Assembly: GCF_017104565.1 (NCBI RefSeq)
Contig: NZ_JAAGPD010000005.1
Coordinates: forward strand, 62,001-126,000
Length of the DNA stretch: 64,000 nucleotides
Origin: Paraburkholderia sp. Tr-20389
GTDB lineage: Bacteria; Pseudomonadota; Gammaproteobacteria; Burkholderiales; Burkholderiaceae
Direction: 5' to 3'
In this document: piece after piece, positions 56,484 to 64,000 of the stretch
How positions within the stretch are numbered: the first letter of the stretch is position 1
Layout of the letters: each line of letters begins with the position of its first letter
The notes under the pieces: generated by a model
Database searches by the model: none
The model's input: only the letters and a program-made list of their open reading frames with translations
What the model was told of the DNA's origin: nothing
Position numbers and translations under genes: made by a program

Positions 56484-57632
56484 TCAAAAATGCAACAGCA
56501 GCCATCCGCCGACGATGCCGCTGACGACCCAGAACGGGATCGAAAAGAGGTGGAACTGCGTCCACATGCCGCGCTCTCCTGAAAGCCTCATTGCAATCAG
56601 ATTCGCGAGCGAACCGATCGCGAATCCGAACCCGCCGATGCTGACGCCGAACGCGAGCGCGCGCCAGTCTTTCGAGAATTCGGCCAGCATGATGGCCGCG
56701 GGTACATTGCTGATGAACTGGGAAAGCACTGCGCCCGCAGCATAGGCACGTAGTGGCGTCGCGAGATGCAATTGCCCAATGGCGTCGTGCACCCAAGGCA
56801 ACGCTGCGACACTTCTTAACACAATGAACATGAACACGAAGATCAGCAGCAAAAGCCAGTCGATCTTCAGAACGATTCGCGGGCGCCAGAAGATGAATCC
56901 CACTGCGACGCCAATCAATCCAATGCCCGCGCGATGAGCATCGGCGAGCAGCACGAACGCTGCAAACAGTAGCGCCGCAACGCCGAGCAATGGGCGATCG
57001 ACGGGATGCGGTTCCGTGTCCTTCGACAGATCCAGCGGGATGCGTTTGAATGACACCGTGGCCACCGCGTACAGCAACACCATCAGCACAAGACACAACG
57101 GCGCGAGCGCGACCACGAATCCGCCGAATGAAACGCCGCTCGTCTGCCAAAGAAACAGATTTTGTGGGTTACCTAACGGCGTGAGGATCGAACCCGCGTT
57201 GACGGCGATAGCGATGAAAATGACGAGTCGCTTGAGCGGCAGCGGCGTCAAATCGTTCAACGACAACGCAAGCGGCACGACGACGAACAATGCGACATCG
57301 TTGGTCAGCAACGTCGACAGCGCAGCCGCAAGCGCGATCAGCAAATAAGCCAACGCCCGCTGCGATCGAATGCGATGGACGACTCGATGTGCGAGCCACA
57401 TCAGGAATCCTGAATATTCGACGGCCTTCGTCAAAATCAGAAGTCCCGCGAGCGTCATCACTGTCTGCCAATCGACCAGCGCAGGCAGAGATGCGAATGG
57501 ACGCGGATGAAACACCTGCAGCGCGATCAATGCAGCGACGAGCACGGTAAGCACCGGCTCTTTCGCTACATAGTGAATGATCGTGCGCAGCAGGTTTCGG
57601 TTTGGCTTTAGTGCTCGCTCGGCAGCCGGCAT
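56484..57632 (-). CDS. Anion/ArsB-type permease (SLC13/CitT-like superfamily)
   Basis: A 382-residue polytopic membrane protein with about ten hydrophobic segments. Repeated signatures STLLTNDVALFVVVPLAL, NAGSILTPLGNPQNLFLWQ and, near the end, SQFISNVPAAIMLAEF are the two halves of the ion-transporter superfamily fold (ArsB, CitM, SLC13). The exported or imported anion cannot be read; no arsR or arsenate reductase is nearby. It begins 12 bases after the parB stop, so it is probably the last gene of the mnmG-rsmG-parAB transcript. Confidence 0.82.
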   Translation of the reverse strand: MPAAERALKPNRNLLRTIIHYVAKEPVLTVLVAALIALQVFHPRPFASLPALVDWQTVMTLAGLLILTKAVEYSGFLMWLAHRVVHRIRSQRALAYLLIALAAALSTLLTNDVALFVVVPLALSLNDLTPLPLKRLVIFIAIAVNAGSILTPLGNPQNLFLWQTSGVSFGGFVVALAPLCLVLMVLLYAVATVSFKRIPLDLSKDTEPHPVDRPLLGVAALLFAAFVLLADAHRAGIGLIGVAVGFIFWRPRIVLKIDWLLLLIFVFMFIVLRSVAALPWVHDAIGQLHLATPLRAYAAGAVLSQFISNVPAAIMLAEFSKDWRALAFGVSIGGFGFAIGSLANLIAMRLSGERGMWTQFHLFSIPFWVVSGIVGGWLLLHF

Positions 57633-57644
57633 TGGAAAGGCTTC

Positions 57645-58535
57645 TTATGCAGGCGTTGCGTTGCCCCGCAAACGGGCAAGAATGCCTTCGAGCGCATCGA
57701 GGTCGCCGAAATCGACCAGCACCTGCCCTCGCCCGCGGCGTCCTAGCTTGATCTTCACCGTTGCGGCGAGCAGATCCGACAGTTCCTCTTCGAGTCGGCG
57801 TGTGTCGCGGCCGCCATCGTTATTCGCTTTCGCCTTCACGGCAGGCGCGGCCTTCGTCGTCGCCGTGACCAGCTTTTCGGTTTCGCGGACCGACATCCGC
57901 TTGTTGATCACCTGATTCGCAAGCGTGATCTGAGTGGCCGCATCGACAGCGAGCAGCGCACGTGCGTGGCCCATGTCGAGGTCACCGGCGAGCAGCATCG
58001 TCTGCACGGGCGAAGCCAGGTTCAACAGACGCAGCAGATTCGACACCGCACTGCGCGAGCGGCCAACCGATTCGGCCGCCTGCTCATGCGTGAAGCTGAA
58101 CTCGTCGAGCAGACGCTGGATGCCTTGCGCCTCTTCGAGCGGATTCAGATCCTCACGCTGGATGTTCTCGATGAGCGCCATCGCGGCCGCGGCCTGATCG
58201 GGCACGTCGCGCACCAGCACAGGCACTTCATCGAGACCGGCAAGGCGCGCCGCGCGAAAGCGCCGCTCGCCGGCAATGATCTCGAATTTTTCGGGTGAAA
58301 CCGGACGCACGAGAATCGGCTGCATCAAACCTTGTGCACGGATGCTGGCCGCCAGTTCCTGCAACGCGCCCTCGTCCATGCGGGTGCGCGGCTGGTACTT
58401 GCCTGCCTGCATCTTGTCGAGCGGCAAGGTGTGAGGCGCGCCGTCGATCTTTACCGCTTCCGTGATGTCCGCGCTTCCGCCGAGCAGCGCCTCCAAGCCC
58501 CTGCCCAACCCCTTCTTCCGTGCTACTGCGTTCAT
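57645..58535 (-). CDS. parB: Chromosome partitioning protein ParB
   Basis: A 296-residue CTP-dependent parS-binding clamp. N-terminal LGRGLEALLG, CTPase box IIAGERRFRAARLAG, the LIENIQREDLNPLEEA motif, helix-turn-helix ESVGRSRSAVSNLLRLL and a C-terminal dimerisation domain. ATG 58535 has GAGGA upstream. Two perfect parS sites lie within 4 kb. Confidence 0.97.
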   Translation of the reverse strand: MNAVARKKGLGRGLEALLGGSADITEAVKIDGAPHTLPLDKMQAGKYQPRTRMDEGALQELAASIRAQGLMQPILVRPVSPEKFEIIAGERRFRAARLAGLDEVPVLVRDVPDQAAAAMALIENIQREDLNPLEEAQGIQRLLDEFSFTHEQAAESVGRSRSAVSNLLRLLNLASPVQTMLLAGDLDMGHARALLAVDAATQITLANQVINKRMSVRETEKLVTATTKAAPAVKAKANNDGGRDTRRLEEELSDLLAATVKIKLGRRGRGQVLVDFGDLDALEGILARLRGNATPA

Positions 58536-58573
58536 CGTGGTTCCTCGATCCGCTTTGGATGATTGGCGCAGCG

Positions 58574-59344
58574 TCATAGCGCACGCACCCGTTCGATCAT
58601 TTCCGCACCGAACTGCACATAAGCCTGTGCACCGCGCGACGCGCGGTCGAACACGACGCCGGGCAAGCCGTAACTCGGCGCCTCGGCAAGTCGCACGTTC
58701 CGCGGAATGACGACGTCGAACACCTTGTCGCCAAAGTGCTCCTTCAATTGGTCCGACACCTGCTGTTGCAGCGTGATGCGCGGATCGAACATCACGCGCA
58801 GCAAGCCGATTACCTTCAGGTCGCGATTCAGATTCGCGTGAACCTGCTTGATGGTGTTGACGAGGTCCGACAAGCCCTCGAGCGCGAAGTATTCGCACTG
58901 CATCGGGATCACGACGCCATGCGCGGCACAGAGGCCGTTGAGCGTCAGTAGCGACAGCGCCGGCGGACAGTCGATCAGCACGAAGTCGTAGTCTTCCACG
59001 ACGTGTGCGAGCGCCTCTCGGAGCTGGCGCTCACGGTTTTCCATGCTGACGAGTTCGACTTCCGCGCCCGCCAGTTCGCGATTCGCCGGCAATACGTCAT
59101 ACGAAACGGATTCCGGCTTCACTCGAGCATCGGCGACCGATACGCCGTCGACCAGCACTTCATAAACCGTGTTCTCGCAAGCGGCCTTGTCGATGCCGCT
59201 GCCCATCGTGGCGTTGCCTTGCGGATCGAGATCGATGAGCAGGACCCGCTGTCCCTGCGATGCGAGGCTCGCGGCGAGATTGACCGCAGTCGTCGTTTTG
59301 CCGACTCCACCCTTCTGGTTCGCAACGCAGAAGATTTTTGCCAT
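58574..59344 (-). CDS. parA: Chromosome partitioning ATPase ParA
   Basis: A 256-residue Walker-type partition ATPase of the short chromosomal class, without an N-terminal DNA-binding domain. The deviant Walker A is QKGGVGKTTTAVNLA, with LIDLDPQGNATMG and LIDCPPALSLLTLN following. Drives ParB-parS segregation on the nucleoid. 38 bases before parB. Confidence 0.97.
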   Translation of the reverse strand: MAKIFCVANQKGGVGKTTTAVNLAASLASQGQRVLLIDLDPQGNATMGSGIDKAACENTVYEVLVDGVSVADARVKPESVSYDVLPANRELAGAEVELVSMENRERQLREALAHVVEDYDFVLIDCPPALSLLTLNGLCAAHGVVIPMQCEYFALEGLSDLVNTIKQVHANLNRDLKVIGLLRVMFDPRITLQQQVSDQLKEHFGDKVFDVVIPRNVRLAEAPSYGLPGVVFDRASRGAQAYVQFGAEMIERVRAL

Positions 59345-59392
59345 CTTTTAGGTGCCCCTTTGCAGCCTGTTTAATGAAATCCCGATTGGAAT

Positions 59393-60070
59393 TCAGCCTA
59401 CCGCGACTTCGACCAGATGCCGTTCGGCTTCCAGCGATGGCACTTTGAGACGAATCACCTGCTTGACTTGTGCGCCTTCGGGCAAGCGCTCGATTTCCCC
59501 ATCGGGCCGCACACCCTTCATCGCCCAGATCGCGCCATTGTCCGCAACGAGGTGACGGGCCAGTGTAACGAAATCTGCGAGCTCTGCGAATGCGCGCGAG
59601 ACGATCACATCAAACTTTCCTGGAACCTCAACGCCCGGCTGCAAGGTTTCGACACGCCCTGTCACCACGGACAGGTTCGTCAGTCCGAGTTCGGCCTTGG
59701 CCTGCGACTGAAAAGCCGATTTTTTCTGGACGATGTCGTTGACCGTGATCGTCCATTCGGGAAATACGATGGCCAGCACGATGCCGGGCAGCCCGCCGCC
59801 TGAGCCGACGTCGAGCGCTGACGCCTGCCCGAGCGGAGCCAGATGCGGAACGATCGAGAGTGAATCCAGGATGTGCTGAATCAACATCTGCCGCGGATCG
59901 CGAATCGCGGTCAGGTTGTAGACGGCGTTCCATTTCGCCAGTAACGCGACGTAGTCGAGTAGCTTGGCTTTTTGATCCAAGGTCAGGCCAATGCCCAGTT
60001 CTCGCACACCCTCTTCCAGCAAACCGGCGAGCGCCTCACGTTCCGCCACTGCATTGGTACGCGTCGTCAT
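59393..60070 (-). CDS. rsmG: 16S rRNA (guanine527-N7)-methyltransferase
   Basis: A 225-residue enzyme (GidB). SAM motif [15 protein letters not shown], preceded by [14 protein letters not shown] and followed by VVTGRVE and VSRAFA, as in the family. The start overlaps the mnmG stop (ATGA). Confidence 0.96.
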
Positions 60071-62025
60071 TGAGCCACCGGCGAGTTGTCGTTGCCGGCG
60101 CCTGCGGGCTTCTGGTTTCGTCGGCCAAGTCCGCGCTTGAGATGAACCATCAACAAGGAGATCGCAGCCGGCGTAATGCCCGAAATACGCGACGCCTGAC
60201 CGATCGTTTCCGGTCGGTATTGCGTCAACTTCTGGCGGGCTTCGAACGACAATCCGCGAACCTCCGCGTAATCGAGGTTTTCCGGCAGGCGGGTGTTCTC
60301 GTGTGCTTCATTGCGCTCGATCTCGCCGGCTTGCCGCTCAATGTACCCTTGGTATTTGACGCCGATCTCGATCTGCTCCTTGATCTGCGCCAGCAGCACC
60401 TTGTCGTCCGCCAAAGCTTCGACGGGTCCGCAGGCGCCTTCGCGCAACGCGCAAATGCCGTCGTAGGAAACGCCAGGGCGCCGCAAAAGATCAGCAAGAC
60501 TGTATTCGTGGTCGATCGGCTTGCCTAGCAACGCAGTTGCTTCCTCAGACGAAAGCGTCTTCGGATTGACCCAAGTGGTCCGGAGCCGCTCTGTTTCACG
60601 TGAAACAGCATCACGCTTGCGGCAGAATGCATCCCAACGGATGTCATCGACCACACCCAATTCGCGACCAATCTCGGTCAGCCGCATGTCGGCATTGTCT
60701 TCACGCAGGCTCAAGCGGTACTCTGCGCGGCTCGTGAACATCCGATATGGCTCAGAGACGCCACGCGTCACCAGATCGTCCACCAGCACGCCGAGATACG
60801 CCTGATCGCGACGTGGACACCATGCTTCCTTACCCTGAACGAACAGTCCGGCGTTGATACCCGCCAGCAAACCCTGTGCAGCGGCCTCTTCGTAGCCCGT
60901 CGTGCCGTTGATCTGGCCGGCAAAGAAGAGCCCATTGATCACCTTCGTTTCTAACGACGCCTTCAGCCCACGCGGATCGAAATAATCGTACTCAATGGCG
61001 TATCCGGGCCGCAGGATGTGAGCGTGCTCCAGCCCCACCATCGAACGAACCAAGTCCAGCTGGACGTCGAAAGGCAGGCTCGTCGAAATTCCGTTCGGAT
61101 AGAACTCATTGGTCGTCAGCCCTTCCGGCTCCAGGAAGATCTGATGCGACTCTTTGGATGCGAAACGGTGAATCTTGTCCTCGATCGACGGGCAATACCG
61201 CGGGCCAACGCCTTCGATCACGCCCGTGTACATCGGCGAACGGTCGAGACCGCTGCGGATGATGTCGTGCGTCTGAGCGTTCGTATGCGTAACCCAGCAA
61301 GGCACTTGTCGCGGATGCTGCTCGACTCGCCCGAGAAACGAGAAAACCGGGATCGGATCCAGATCGCCCGGTTGCTCTTCGAGCTTCGAGAAATCGATCG
61401 TGCGACCGTCGATTCGCGGCGGAGTCCCCGTCTTCAGCCGCCCCTGCGGGAGCTTCAGTTCCTTCAGACGCGCCGACAGCGACACCGCAGCCGGATCCCC
61501 TGCCCGCCCGCCGGTGTAGTTATTGAGACCGACGTGGATCTTCCCATCGAGGAAGGTGCCGGCGGTCAAAACAACTGCACGCGCACGAAAACGGACGCCG
61601 ACCTGCGTCACAGCCCCGACGACTCGGTCGCCTTCGACCATCAAATCGTCGACGGACTGCTGGAAAAGCCAGAGATTCGGCTGATTTTCGAGCCGATGCC
61701 GGATCGCAGCCTTATAGAGAATACGGTCAGCCTGAGCACGAGTGGCCCGAACGGCGGGCCCCTTCGACGAGTTCAAGATGCGGAACTGGATGCCGCCTTC
61801 GTCGGTGGCAGCTGCCATTGCGCCGCCAAGCGCGTCGACTTCCTTTACCAAATGACCTTTGCCAATGCCGCCAATCGACGGATTGCAGCTCATCTGACCG
61901 AGGGTTTCGATGTTGTGCGTCAGCAAGAGCGTCTTATTGCCCATACGCGCGGACGCCAACGCGGCTTCCGTGCCGGCATGACCGCCGCCAACGACGATTA
62001 CGTCAAACTCTGTGGGATAAAGCAT
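60067..62025 (-). CDS. mnmG: tRNA uridine 5-carboxymethylaminomethyl modification enzyme MnmG (GidA)
   Basis: A 652-residue FAD enzyme that with MnmE modifies the wobble uridine of several tRNAs. N-terminal FAD motif [27 protein letters not shown] with a catalytic cysteine, [12 protein letters not shown] and a C-terminal helical domain ([16 protein letters not shown]). The codons for DAVSRETER include a perfect parS at 60592-60607. First gene of the mnmG-rsmG-parAB run. Confidence 0.97.
60592..60607. promoter_or_regulatory. parS centromere site inside mnmG
   Basis: TGTTTCACGTGAAACA, a perfect match to the universal bacterial parS palindrome. It lies in the mnmG coding region and specifies Val-Ser-Arg-Glu-Thr. 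Confidence 0.95.
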
Positions 62026-62079
62026 CGCGGATCTCACGCTGGATCCCGCGTGAGCCTTAAAAAGAAAAGTATGGGCGAA

Positions 62080-62108
62080 ATTATAGCGGTTTCGCTTTTG
62101 GCCCGAAT
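62080..62108 (-). promoter_or_regulatory. Probable promoter of mnmG-rsmG-parAB
   Basis: A perfect TATAAT reads on the minus strand (62085-62080), giving a leader of about 48 bases. The -35 region (ATTCGG) is poor, so an activator or a weak promoter is possible. Confidence 0.5.
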
Positions 62109-62129
62109 TCCGTCCGAACGGCATAAGAC

Positions 62130-62162
62130 AAAAAAACGGCGTGTTTCACGTGAAACACGCCG
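62130..62162 (-). terminator. Intrinsic terminator of the liv operon, built from a parS palindrome
   Basis: On the minus strand a perfect 13-bp inverted repeat (26 bases, 62162-62137, outer arm CGGCGTGTTTCAC) is followed by seven T (62136-62130), 36 bases after the livF stop. Because the palindrome has no loop bases, the hairpin must open its inner pairs. Confidence 0.75.
62142..62157. promoter_or_regulatory. parS centromere site between livF and mnmG
   Basis: TGTTTCACGTGAAACA, perfect parS, extended by symmetric GGC/GCC flanks into the terminator-like palindrome. Confidence 0.95.
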
Positions 62163-62198
62163 CTCGTTTGACAGCCAACTCGCTGAAAATTTCGTCGA

Positions 62199-62951
62199 CT
62201 AGGCGACTTTTTTCGTCAGTCCCAGATAAGTTTCAATCACGCGTGGGTTCTGGGCCAATGCTTTGGCTTCCCCTTCCAAGGCAAGCTCTCCTGTCTCAAG
62301 TACATAGCCGTAGTCCGAAATCTGCAGCGCGGCCCGTGCATTCTGCTCGATCAACAGCGTCGCGACGCCCGTCTGTCGCAGCGCGCTAATGATGTGAAAA
62401 ATCTCCTTCACGATCAACGGCGCCAACCCCAAGCTCGGCTCGTCGAGCATCAGCAGATCAGGTTTGCCCATCAGCGCGCGGCCGACCGCCAGCATTTGCC
62501 GCTCACCACCCGACAATGTTCCGGCCGCCTGCTTGCGCCGCTCCTTAAGCCTCGGGAATAGCTGAAACACCGGTTCAAGCTGGTCCAGATAATTGCGCTC
62601 CCCTGCGCGCTTGCGGCGATACGCACCGAGGATCAGGTTGTCCTCAACGGTCATCGCAGCGAACAACTCCCGCTTTTCCGGCACGAGGCACATACCACGC
62701 GCGACGCGCTTCTCGACCGGCACATGGCTCACGTCTTCGTCGCGATACATAACCGCGCCCTTTGCGTGTCCCGTGACCGGCAACGCGCCCATGATCGCGT
62801 TGAGCAGCGTCGACTTCCCTGCTCCATTCGGACCAATCACGGAGACAATCTGCCCGGGCCGTACGGCTATTTTCGCGCCGTGCAACGCCTCCACCTTCCC
62901 GTACCGAACGGAAAGACTGCTGACTTCGAGAATCGGCTGATCTGCCATCAT
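62199..62951 (-). CDS. livF: Branched-chain amino-acid ABC transporter ATPase LivF
   Basis: A 250-residue ATPase with Walker [13 protein letters not shown], signature LSGGERQMLAVGRAL and Walker B LLMLDEPSLGLAP. The order livG-livF, the short length and the C-terminal ETYLGL identify LivF. Its ATG overlaps the upstream stop (ATGATG). Confidence 0.95.
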   Translation of the reverse strand: MMADQPILEVSSLSVRYGKVEALHGAKIAVRPGQIVSVIGPNGAGKSTLLNAIMGALPVTGHAKGAVMYRDEDVSHVPVEKRVARGMCLVPEKRELFAAMTVEDNLILGAYRRKRAGERNYLDQLEPVFQLFPRLKERRKQAAGTLSGGERQMLAVGRALMGKPDLLMLDEPSLGLAPLIVKEIFHIISALRQTGVATLLIEQNARAALQISDYGYVLETGELALEGEAKALAQNPRVIETYLGLTKKVA

Positions 62952-64000
62952 TCCACCCCACCCAGATAGGCTTCCAGCACCGCAGGATCGTTCTGCACGT
63001 CCTGTGGCAAGCCTTCCGCAATTCGCGTCCCAAACTCCATCACCACCAGCCGATCCGTCAGATTCATCACGAAGTCCATATCGTGCTCGACTAGCAGCAC
63101 GCTCATGCCCTCCTCCCGAAGCTTGCGCAGCAGCGTCCCGAGTTGCTGCTTCTCCTGATAGCGCAATCCGGCTGCCGGCTCATCCAGCAACAACAGCGTC
63201 GGATCGCAGCACAGTGCTCGCGCGATTTCCAGAATCCGCTGCTTGCCTAGCGCGAGACTGCCTGCTTCGTCGTACATATGCTCTTCGAGGCCCACACGGC
63301 GAATCTGCCGCGCCGCTTCCGCCATCAGACGCGCCTCTTCAGCCGTATTCAGACGAGCCACGCTACGCCACACGCCCGCATGACCCCGCAGATGTGCACC
63401 GATCGCAACGTTCTCGAGCACCGTCATCCCCGGCAGCAGCTTGACGTGCTGAAACGTGCGCCCAATGCCGCGTTTAACAATTTCACGTGAATTGAGCGCA
63501 TCGATACGCTCGCCTCGGAACGAGATCGCACCGCTCGTTGCTTGCAGTACGCCCGTGACCAGGTTGAAAGTGGTCGACTTGCCCGCGCCGTTAGGACCGA
63601 TCAAACCGATGATCTGCCCCGCCTTCACTTCGAAGCTGACGTCATTCACGGCGACCAGGCCGCCGAACTGCTTACGCGCCTTATCGACCACCAGCAGTGG
63701 TTCGCCGGCCGCCGGCTTGCTGCGCTGCGGCAACGCATCCGCGTGATTGGGGACATGCGCACGCGGCCCGCGCGGGAAAATACGCGCCACGAACGGCCAC
63801 ACGCCTTGGCGCGCGTACTGCAGCAGCAACACCATCAGAATGCCGAAAACGATGATCTCGAAGTTGCCGTTCTCACCCAACAGCTTCGGCAGCAAAGTCT
63901 GCAGATAGTCCTGAAGGAACGTCAGAATCGCCGCGCCCAGCACGGCGCCCCACACGTGCGCGACGCCGCCAACTACAGCCATGAACAGAAACTCGATCCC
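62948..64000 (-). CDS. LivM-LivG fusion: branched-chain amino-acid ABC permease plus ATPase (C-terminal part; runs off right edge)
   Basis: The visible 350 codons start inside a permease: [23 protein letters not shown] and two hydrophobic segments are the C-terminal end of LivM. A linker of about 35 residues (Pro/Arg-rich) leads into a complete LivG-type ATPase: Walker [14 protein letters not shown], Walker [16 protein letters not shown] signature [15 protein letters not shown] (a variant of LSYGQQR) and the C-terminal EAYLGG. The frame stays open to the window edge, so permease and ATPase are one polypeptide. No internal start with a ribosome site is visible at the junction. Confidence 0.9.

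Follow-up and report, generated by a model that had tools for sequence, protein, structure and literature searches.

A chromosomal parS site that probably doubles as the liv-operon terminator in Paraburkholderia and its relatives

Can the same few bases of a chromosome serve both as a centromere site in DNA and as the signal that ends transcription of a neighbouring operon? The question is raised by a parS sequence of Paraburkholderia sp. Tr-20389 that lies between the end of the liv operon and the mnmG-rsmG-parA-parB genes, inside a longer inverted repeat. We analysed the site within a window of 64,000 nucleotides, by which we mean the whole stretch of DNA under analysis (contig NZ_JAAGPD010000005.1, positions 62,001 to 126,000), and all coordinates below count from its first letter. 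The features on which the argument depends are as follows.

62199..62951, minus strand: gene for a LivF-like ABC ATPase, transcribed in the direction of the terminator (open reading frame; best NCBIfam model LivF)
62130..62165, minus strand: whole predicted intrinsic terminator of the liv operon, hairpin and T tract (from fold and conservation)
62137..62162, no strand: perfect palindrome of 26 bp, in which outer arms of 5 bp (CGGCG / CGCCG) flank parS; arm pairs covary in relatives
62142..62157, no strand: parS core TGTTTCACGTGAAACA, exact consensus match; ParB loading site as predicted from the consensus
62130..62136, minus strand: T7 tract of the predicted terminator, A7 on the plus strand (T tract kept in 75/80 relatives)
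62080..62085, minus strand: putative -10 element TATAAT of an mnmG-rsmG-parA-parB promoter (by inspection)
60067..62025, minus strand: mnmG (gidA), first gene downstream (TIGR00136 above cut-off)
60592..60607, no strand: second parS, inside mnmG (exact consensus match; no terminator fold, internal control)
59393..60070, minus strand: rsmG (gidB) (TIGR00138 above cut-off)
58574..59344, minus strand: parA (open reading frame; ParA-type models, below cut-offs)
57645..58541, minus strand: parB, start approximate (open reading frame; TIGR00180 parB_part above cut-off)

Read along the minus strand, the order is thus the livF stop codon, 36 nt of spacer, CGGCG-TGTTTCACGTGAAACA-CGCCG (62162-62137), T7 (62136-62130), the putative -10 element and mnmG. 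The livF product scores below the curated cut-off of its best NCBIfam model, for which reason we call it LivF-like. The start of mnmG is most likely at 62025 and not at 62124, where the longest open reading frame begins; the protein predicted from 62025 matches TIGR00136. A consensus promoter scan upstream of mnmG gave no match.

The intergenic site matches the 16-bp parS consensus TGTTNCACGTGAAACA exactly and, as expected of a parS, lies close to parA and parB, the start of parB being about 3.6 kb away. Exact matches to the consensus number two in the 9.0-Mb genome (129 contigs), namely the intergenic copy at 62142 and the mnmG-internal copy at 60592. From the consensus, and from the B. cenocepacia work (PMC5450999), ParB is predicted to bind the intergenic copy. 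Of 145 genomes of the genus (g1, Paraburkholderia-like), one (G088) has no exact match to the consensus, though it is rated 100% complete.

The sequence-only reading from which this analysis started had described the parS palindrome as extended to a perfect 26-base inverted repeat and followed by seven T on the liv strand, 36 bases from the livF stop. Both descriptions are borne out: CGGCGTGTTTCACGTGAAACACGCCG, at 62137-62162, is a perfect 26-base palindrome with no loop, and it starts 36 nt after the livF stop codon (62199-62201) in the direction of reading. No longer palindrome without a loop occurs in the window, and in 50 Markov-1 shuffles the longest averaged 17.8 and never exceeded 24. 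A 46-nt liv-strand RNA around the palindrome folds at -25.1 kcal/mol (z -5.6), which none of 200 shuffles equalled. The predicted hairpin has 14 pairs, seven of them G-C, and is of the stable, G+C-rich kind found in intrinsic terminators; as in such terminators, too, its stem runs straight into the T tract, here T7, of the transcribed strand. The 16 bp of parS also make up the upper stem and the loop of this hairpin. In a crude scan of positions 57000-64000, the parS hairpin had the longest stem among eight terminator-like sites, a result that proves nothing alone because 7.0 such sites are expected by chance.

To compare the spacer among relatives, we used 80 loci, the best 80 of 367 relatives, that had been fetched by LivF similarity alone and hence form an unbiased set; they are labelled Paraburkholderia, Burkholderia, Caballeronia and Trinickia. 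A parS-like core, defined as having at most two mismatches and lying downstream of livF, is kept at this position in 80/80 loci, and 79 of these match the consensus used in the script. A terminator was counted where a T tract accompanied a hairpin that folds no more weakly than -15 kcal/mol; 74 of the 80 loci have one on the liv strand and 5 on the opposite strand. The same element is present in L056, from Paraburkholderia xenovorans LB400. The mnmG-internal parS supplies a control, since none of its 72 copies is terminator-like on either strand (the other eight loci have no mnmG-internal parS in reach). Therefore the same 16 bp carry a terminator only at the operon end. We stress that a separate count of 127/140 is biased, many of its loci (L113-L142, L203-L241) having been chosen by a match to parS plus T5.

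The T tract is kept in 75 of the 80 loci, that is, in the 74 that fold at -15 or better and in L108, labelled Burkholderia sp. Leaf177, which has T7 and a fold of -13.0, short of the cut-off. The five loci without a T tract (L095, L096, L100, L102, L111) all have parS and are all labelled Trinickia; the arms are retained in L096 and missing from the other four. The outcome named beforehand as telling against a double use of the site, namely parS kept with arms and T tract lost, is thus confined to four loci, with a fifth losing the T tract only, all within Trinickia. Just before parS, L100 has a substitute hairpin of -27.1 with a run of four T, L111 one of -20.2 with five T, and the picked genome L187 one of -15.5 with four T; L095 offers -20.1 with a poor T run, L096 only the TGTTT of parS itself, and L102 none. 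The scan behind these matches is loose, as 41 of the 80 loci show some other match at -12 or better, and substitute terminators in loci lacking the fused one are only a hint.

If the outer arms act as an RNA stem, their letters should be free to change provided that both sides change together. Over all 81 rows (the 80 loci and the window), the second position outside the 16 bp (offset 2) forms T-A in 44 rows, C-G in 33 and G-C in 2, and no pair in the other 2; it changes 14 times on the tree, against a shuffled mean of 29. These and the following change counts are approximate, since the tree was built from livF and mnmG pieces only and L034 is short. All four exceptions come from the armless Trinickia rows (L095, L100, L102, L111), and the remaining 77 rows are always paired at offset 2, 44 of them as T-A and 33 as C-G. 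The left side, the right side and the pair each change 11 times there, which amounts to about eleven double switches. Offset 4 is G-C in 77/77 rows. Rarer paired swaps occur at offset 1 (T-A in L054), offset 3 (T-A in L053, C-G in L078) and offset 5 (T-A in L074, L105 and L108; A-T in L107). Two rows go against pairing: L094 has C.A at offset 5, and L110, with a 5' arm that a bulge seems to displace, has A.C at offset 3. When the 81 rows are reduced to their 53 unique contexts, 19 G.U, 5 A.C and 8 other non-pairs occur at offsets 1-6; we give this ratio little weight because most of the G.U fall at offset 6, by which the T tract has begun in some rows. The outer arms thus display the compensating changes that characterise the stem of an intrinsic terminator, and the earlier proposal of dual use, as ParB site and liv terminator, gains comparative support from them and from the hairpin and T tract of the 74 loci.

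How widely the combination occurs was surveyed in 299 genomes of the family with a pattern of parS, 3-9 nt and T5, of which the arms form no part. It was found in 123 genomes, from 9 of 25 genera, and the reversed pattern, used as a control, gave 0. By genus, matches were found in 36/39 genomes of g1, 38/40 of g10 (Caballeronia-like), 33/40 of g12 (Burkholderia-like), 3/3 of g14 (Trinickia-like) and 4/8 of g8, with one in g2, three in g21, one in g11 and four in g13, and none among the searched genomes of g3, g24 and g25 (the last also Trinickia-like); the likenesses of g10, g12, g14 and g25 are based on contexts identical to those of named loci. Some matches have no simple arms (L135, L178, L179), and among the g12 misses L175 and L176 have a shorter T run (T4 followed by GTTT), while in L173 the element is rebuilt. 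Paraburkholderia, Burkholderia and Caballeronia typically have the predicted fusion of parS and terminator, and some Trinickia have it as well. In one g10 genome (L222, G365), two sites of the parS+T kind lie at a distance of 137 bp, one of them off consensus, as if duplicated.

Beyond the family, T5 follows parS in 22 of 299 genomes of the phylum (20 outside the family) and A5, the control, in 11 (8 outside the family), so that the combination is not a rule and a general property of parS was rejected as an explanation. Among the 20 outside cases, an intergenic parS with the look of a terminator is confined to L150 and L151 (one genus) and L153, whose 12-pair extension is symmetrical with T5 on both sides; the contexts of these three were judged from open reading frames only, and the sites lie near position 1500. 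L144 pairs well but sits inside an open reading frame, and L156-L158 and L161 have short, partly wobble arms only.

Of 30 picked genomes of the family, 25 have a consensus parS no more than 700 nt upstream of mnmG, and 23 have another inside the gene, at exactly +1418. Three g12 genomes among the 30 lack the mnmG-internal copy. Where livF was not found upstream, the arms are mostly absent. Three g3 genomes (L195, L197, L198) have a separate, conventional terminator just before, against or overlapping parS; in L198 the T run of the terminator shares bases with parS, and in L195 and L197 a gene for N-formylglutamate amidohydrolase lies upstream and runs towards the terminator. L178 and L179 (g8) retain the T side and not the 5' arm, and G145 has AAAAACCA-parS-TGGTTTTT with a SET-domain gene upstream. 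Other genomes have rebuilt forms. In L173 (g12), a pair of parS-like sites in inverted orientation lies about 110-160 nt upstream of mnmG; each departs from parS by one outer letter, and together they fold into a single 22-pair hairpin (-39.6 kcal/mol) followed by a T run. A half-parS copy forms the 5' arm in L234 and L235 (-26.5 and -18.0), and L233, whose context is identical to that of L131, has a poorer, bulged-looking fold (-12.4). L173 and L234 suggest that both functions are wanted at the same place. The distribution fits an old parS at the operon boundary that became fused to a terminator in one clade, in an order of events that we infer.

From these observations, we hypothesize that the element is very probably a parS-based intrinsic terminator, in which one stretch of DNA carries two codes and ends the liv operon ahead of mnmG-rsmG-parA-parB. 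Comparison among relatives establishes both signals, their joint conservation, the covariation of the arms and the strand bias; that transcription also terminates here in the cell is what we infer from them. In double-stranded DNA, the central 16 bp would be the parS on which ParB loads. In the nascent liv RNA, the same 16 bases, together with outer arms of about 5-6 bp and the T tract, would form the terminator hairpin, and liv transcription would end about 100 nt before the mnmG start, a short way ahead of the likely promoter of mnmG-rsmG-parA-parB. The most likely history is that an older parS, already present upstream of mnmG, offered a palindrome ready for co-option once the liv operon ended there, and that selection has kept both functions since then. 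RNA polymerase coming from livF has to transcribe the whole of parS before the hairpin forms, and would be released with its trailing part still near parS. The terminator therefore cannot keep polymerase off parS; its effect would be to keep polymerase from entering the mnmG-par operon.

Explaining the element does not need any coupling between ParB and termination. A mutual form of coupling, a putative centromere gating in which ParB loading alters liv termination and read-through into the par genes while liv transcription in turn modulates ParB loading, is in our estimate unlikely. We consider quite unlikely a ParB-controlled terminator, in which ParB at parS alters polymerase pausing and the level of ParB sets liv read-through into mnmG-rsmG-parA-parB as a feedback. 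Such control would be served by the coincidence of the termination point with the ParB site and by the spacing between parS and TATAAT, which is 54-59 nt in 70 of the 81 rows, and P. aeruginosa ParB is reported to repress promoters beside the intergenic sites parS3 and parS4 (PMC5521831). However, the geometry is not universal: three rows (L103, L106, L112) lack a TATAAT over a distance of 260 nt, and parS lies 362 and 557 nt before mnmG in two g12 genomes, so that a fixed arrangement of ParB and promoter is not required everywhere. Moreover, clusters of B. subtilis ParB at a single parS were reported to be no roadblock to E. coli RNA polymerase in vitro, where condensation by ParB continued during transcription (PMC10681803).

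Another reading would make the extended palindrome a protein site in double-stranded DNA that is longer than parS, bound by ParB or a second protein, with the T tract incidental; we consider it very improbable. The 26-bp symmetry in the window is perfect, parS is itself a protein site, and the probes used to study binding in B. cenocepacia were inverted repeats of 26 bases around the 16-bp site, with flanks that may have been natural, which leaves room for a role of the arms (PMC5450999). That study of chromosome 1 treated the 16 bp as the site, in which positions 1-16 and 5-12 were tolerant (PMC5450999). Against a longer site stand the arm letters, which vary while staying paired (T-A or C-G at offset 2, with swaps at offsets 1, 3 and 5), since a sequence-specific protein would hardly tolerate letters that change so freely; and the mnmG-internal parS has no paired arms, and the T tract lies mostly on one side. 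The compensating changes led us to reject a longer protein site as the main reading, and the mnmG copy and the freely changing arm letters suggest that the arms are dispensable for ParB.

The hairpins of terminators are also able to shield the 3' ends of transcripts. It is nevertheless highly unlikely that the hairpin serves mainly to stabilise or process the 3' end and does not mark the point of termination, given that the T tract comes directly after the stem and is kept together with it, and that the loose scan of the window spacer yields otherwise only matches that are weak or lie on the TGTTT of parS itself (-13.5, -3.7). A chance origin was rejected on the fold z, the conservation in relatives and the length of the palindrome relative to shuffles.

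The predicted terminator, made as it is of a centromere site, resembles several known arrangements and departs from each. It shares with ordinary intrinsic terminators the G+C-rich stem, the tetraloop, the T tract and the place just after a stop codon, and differs from them in that the top of its hairpin is pinned to the sequence of parS. The nearest idea is that of the uptake-signal terminators of Neisseria and Pasteurellaceae (Kingsford et al. 2007, PMC1852404), in which, as here, a DNA signal with another job appears co-opted as a terminator stem. Their stem is described as closely spaced complementary copies of a very abundant word (PMC1852404), whereas a single palindromic centromere site, one of two copies, here forms the top of the stem and the arms are added outside; an uptake-signal word is repeated hundreds of times or more, against two parS in 9.0 Mb. 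The parS of Burkholderia chromosome 1 has the same 16-bp core and is reported in two copies on B. cenocepacia chromosome 1 (PMC7022226, PMC5450999); the word 'terminator' has 0 occurrences in the main text of each of these papers. Plasmid RA3 has, at the end of its stability module, a Rho-independent terminator downstream of orf11 that proved efficient in a reporter test, and parS likewise comes after orf11, but the published description that we draw on presents the two as neighbours and states no shared sequence, and the system is a plasmid KorB/parS and not a chromosomal one (PMC7414963). In Mycobacterium bovis BCG, a parS near the gid-par genes is described as overlapping the -10 element of a promoter upstream of gidB (PMC2346475), whereas the intergenic parS of the window overlaps a predicted terminator. 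A search of titles and the beginnings of abstracts, mostly from journals outside subscription, found no earlier description of a parS serving as a terminator, and a search for 3'-end mapping turned up no data on this locus and, among the papers listed, no title announcing a Term-seq study of Burkholderia.

The element would be a clear example from nature of two selections acting at once on a single short sequence, which would serve as a centromere in DNA and as a terminator in RNA. It comes with a built-in control, the parS inside mnmG, and with natural variants in relatives, which include parS without a terminator, a terminator beside parS and rebuilt hairpins. It thus offers a defined place at which to ask whether ParB loading and transcription interfere, a matter on which reported results conflict (PMC10681803). 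Genetic work that changes the intergenic parS may also disturb how both the liv and the par operon are transcribed.
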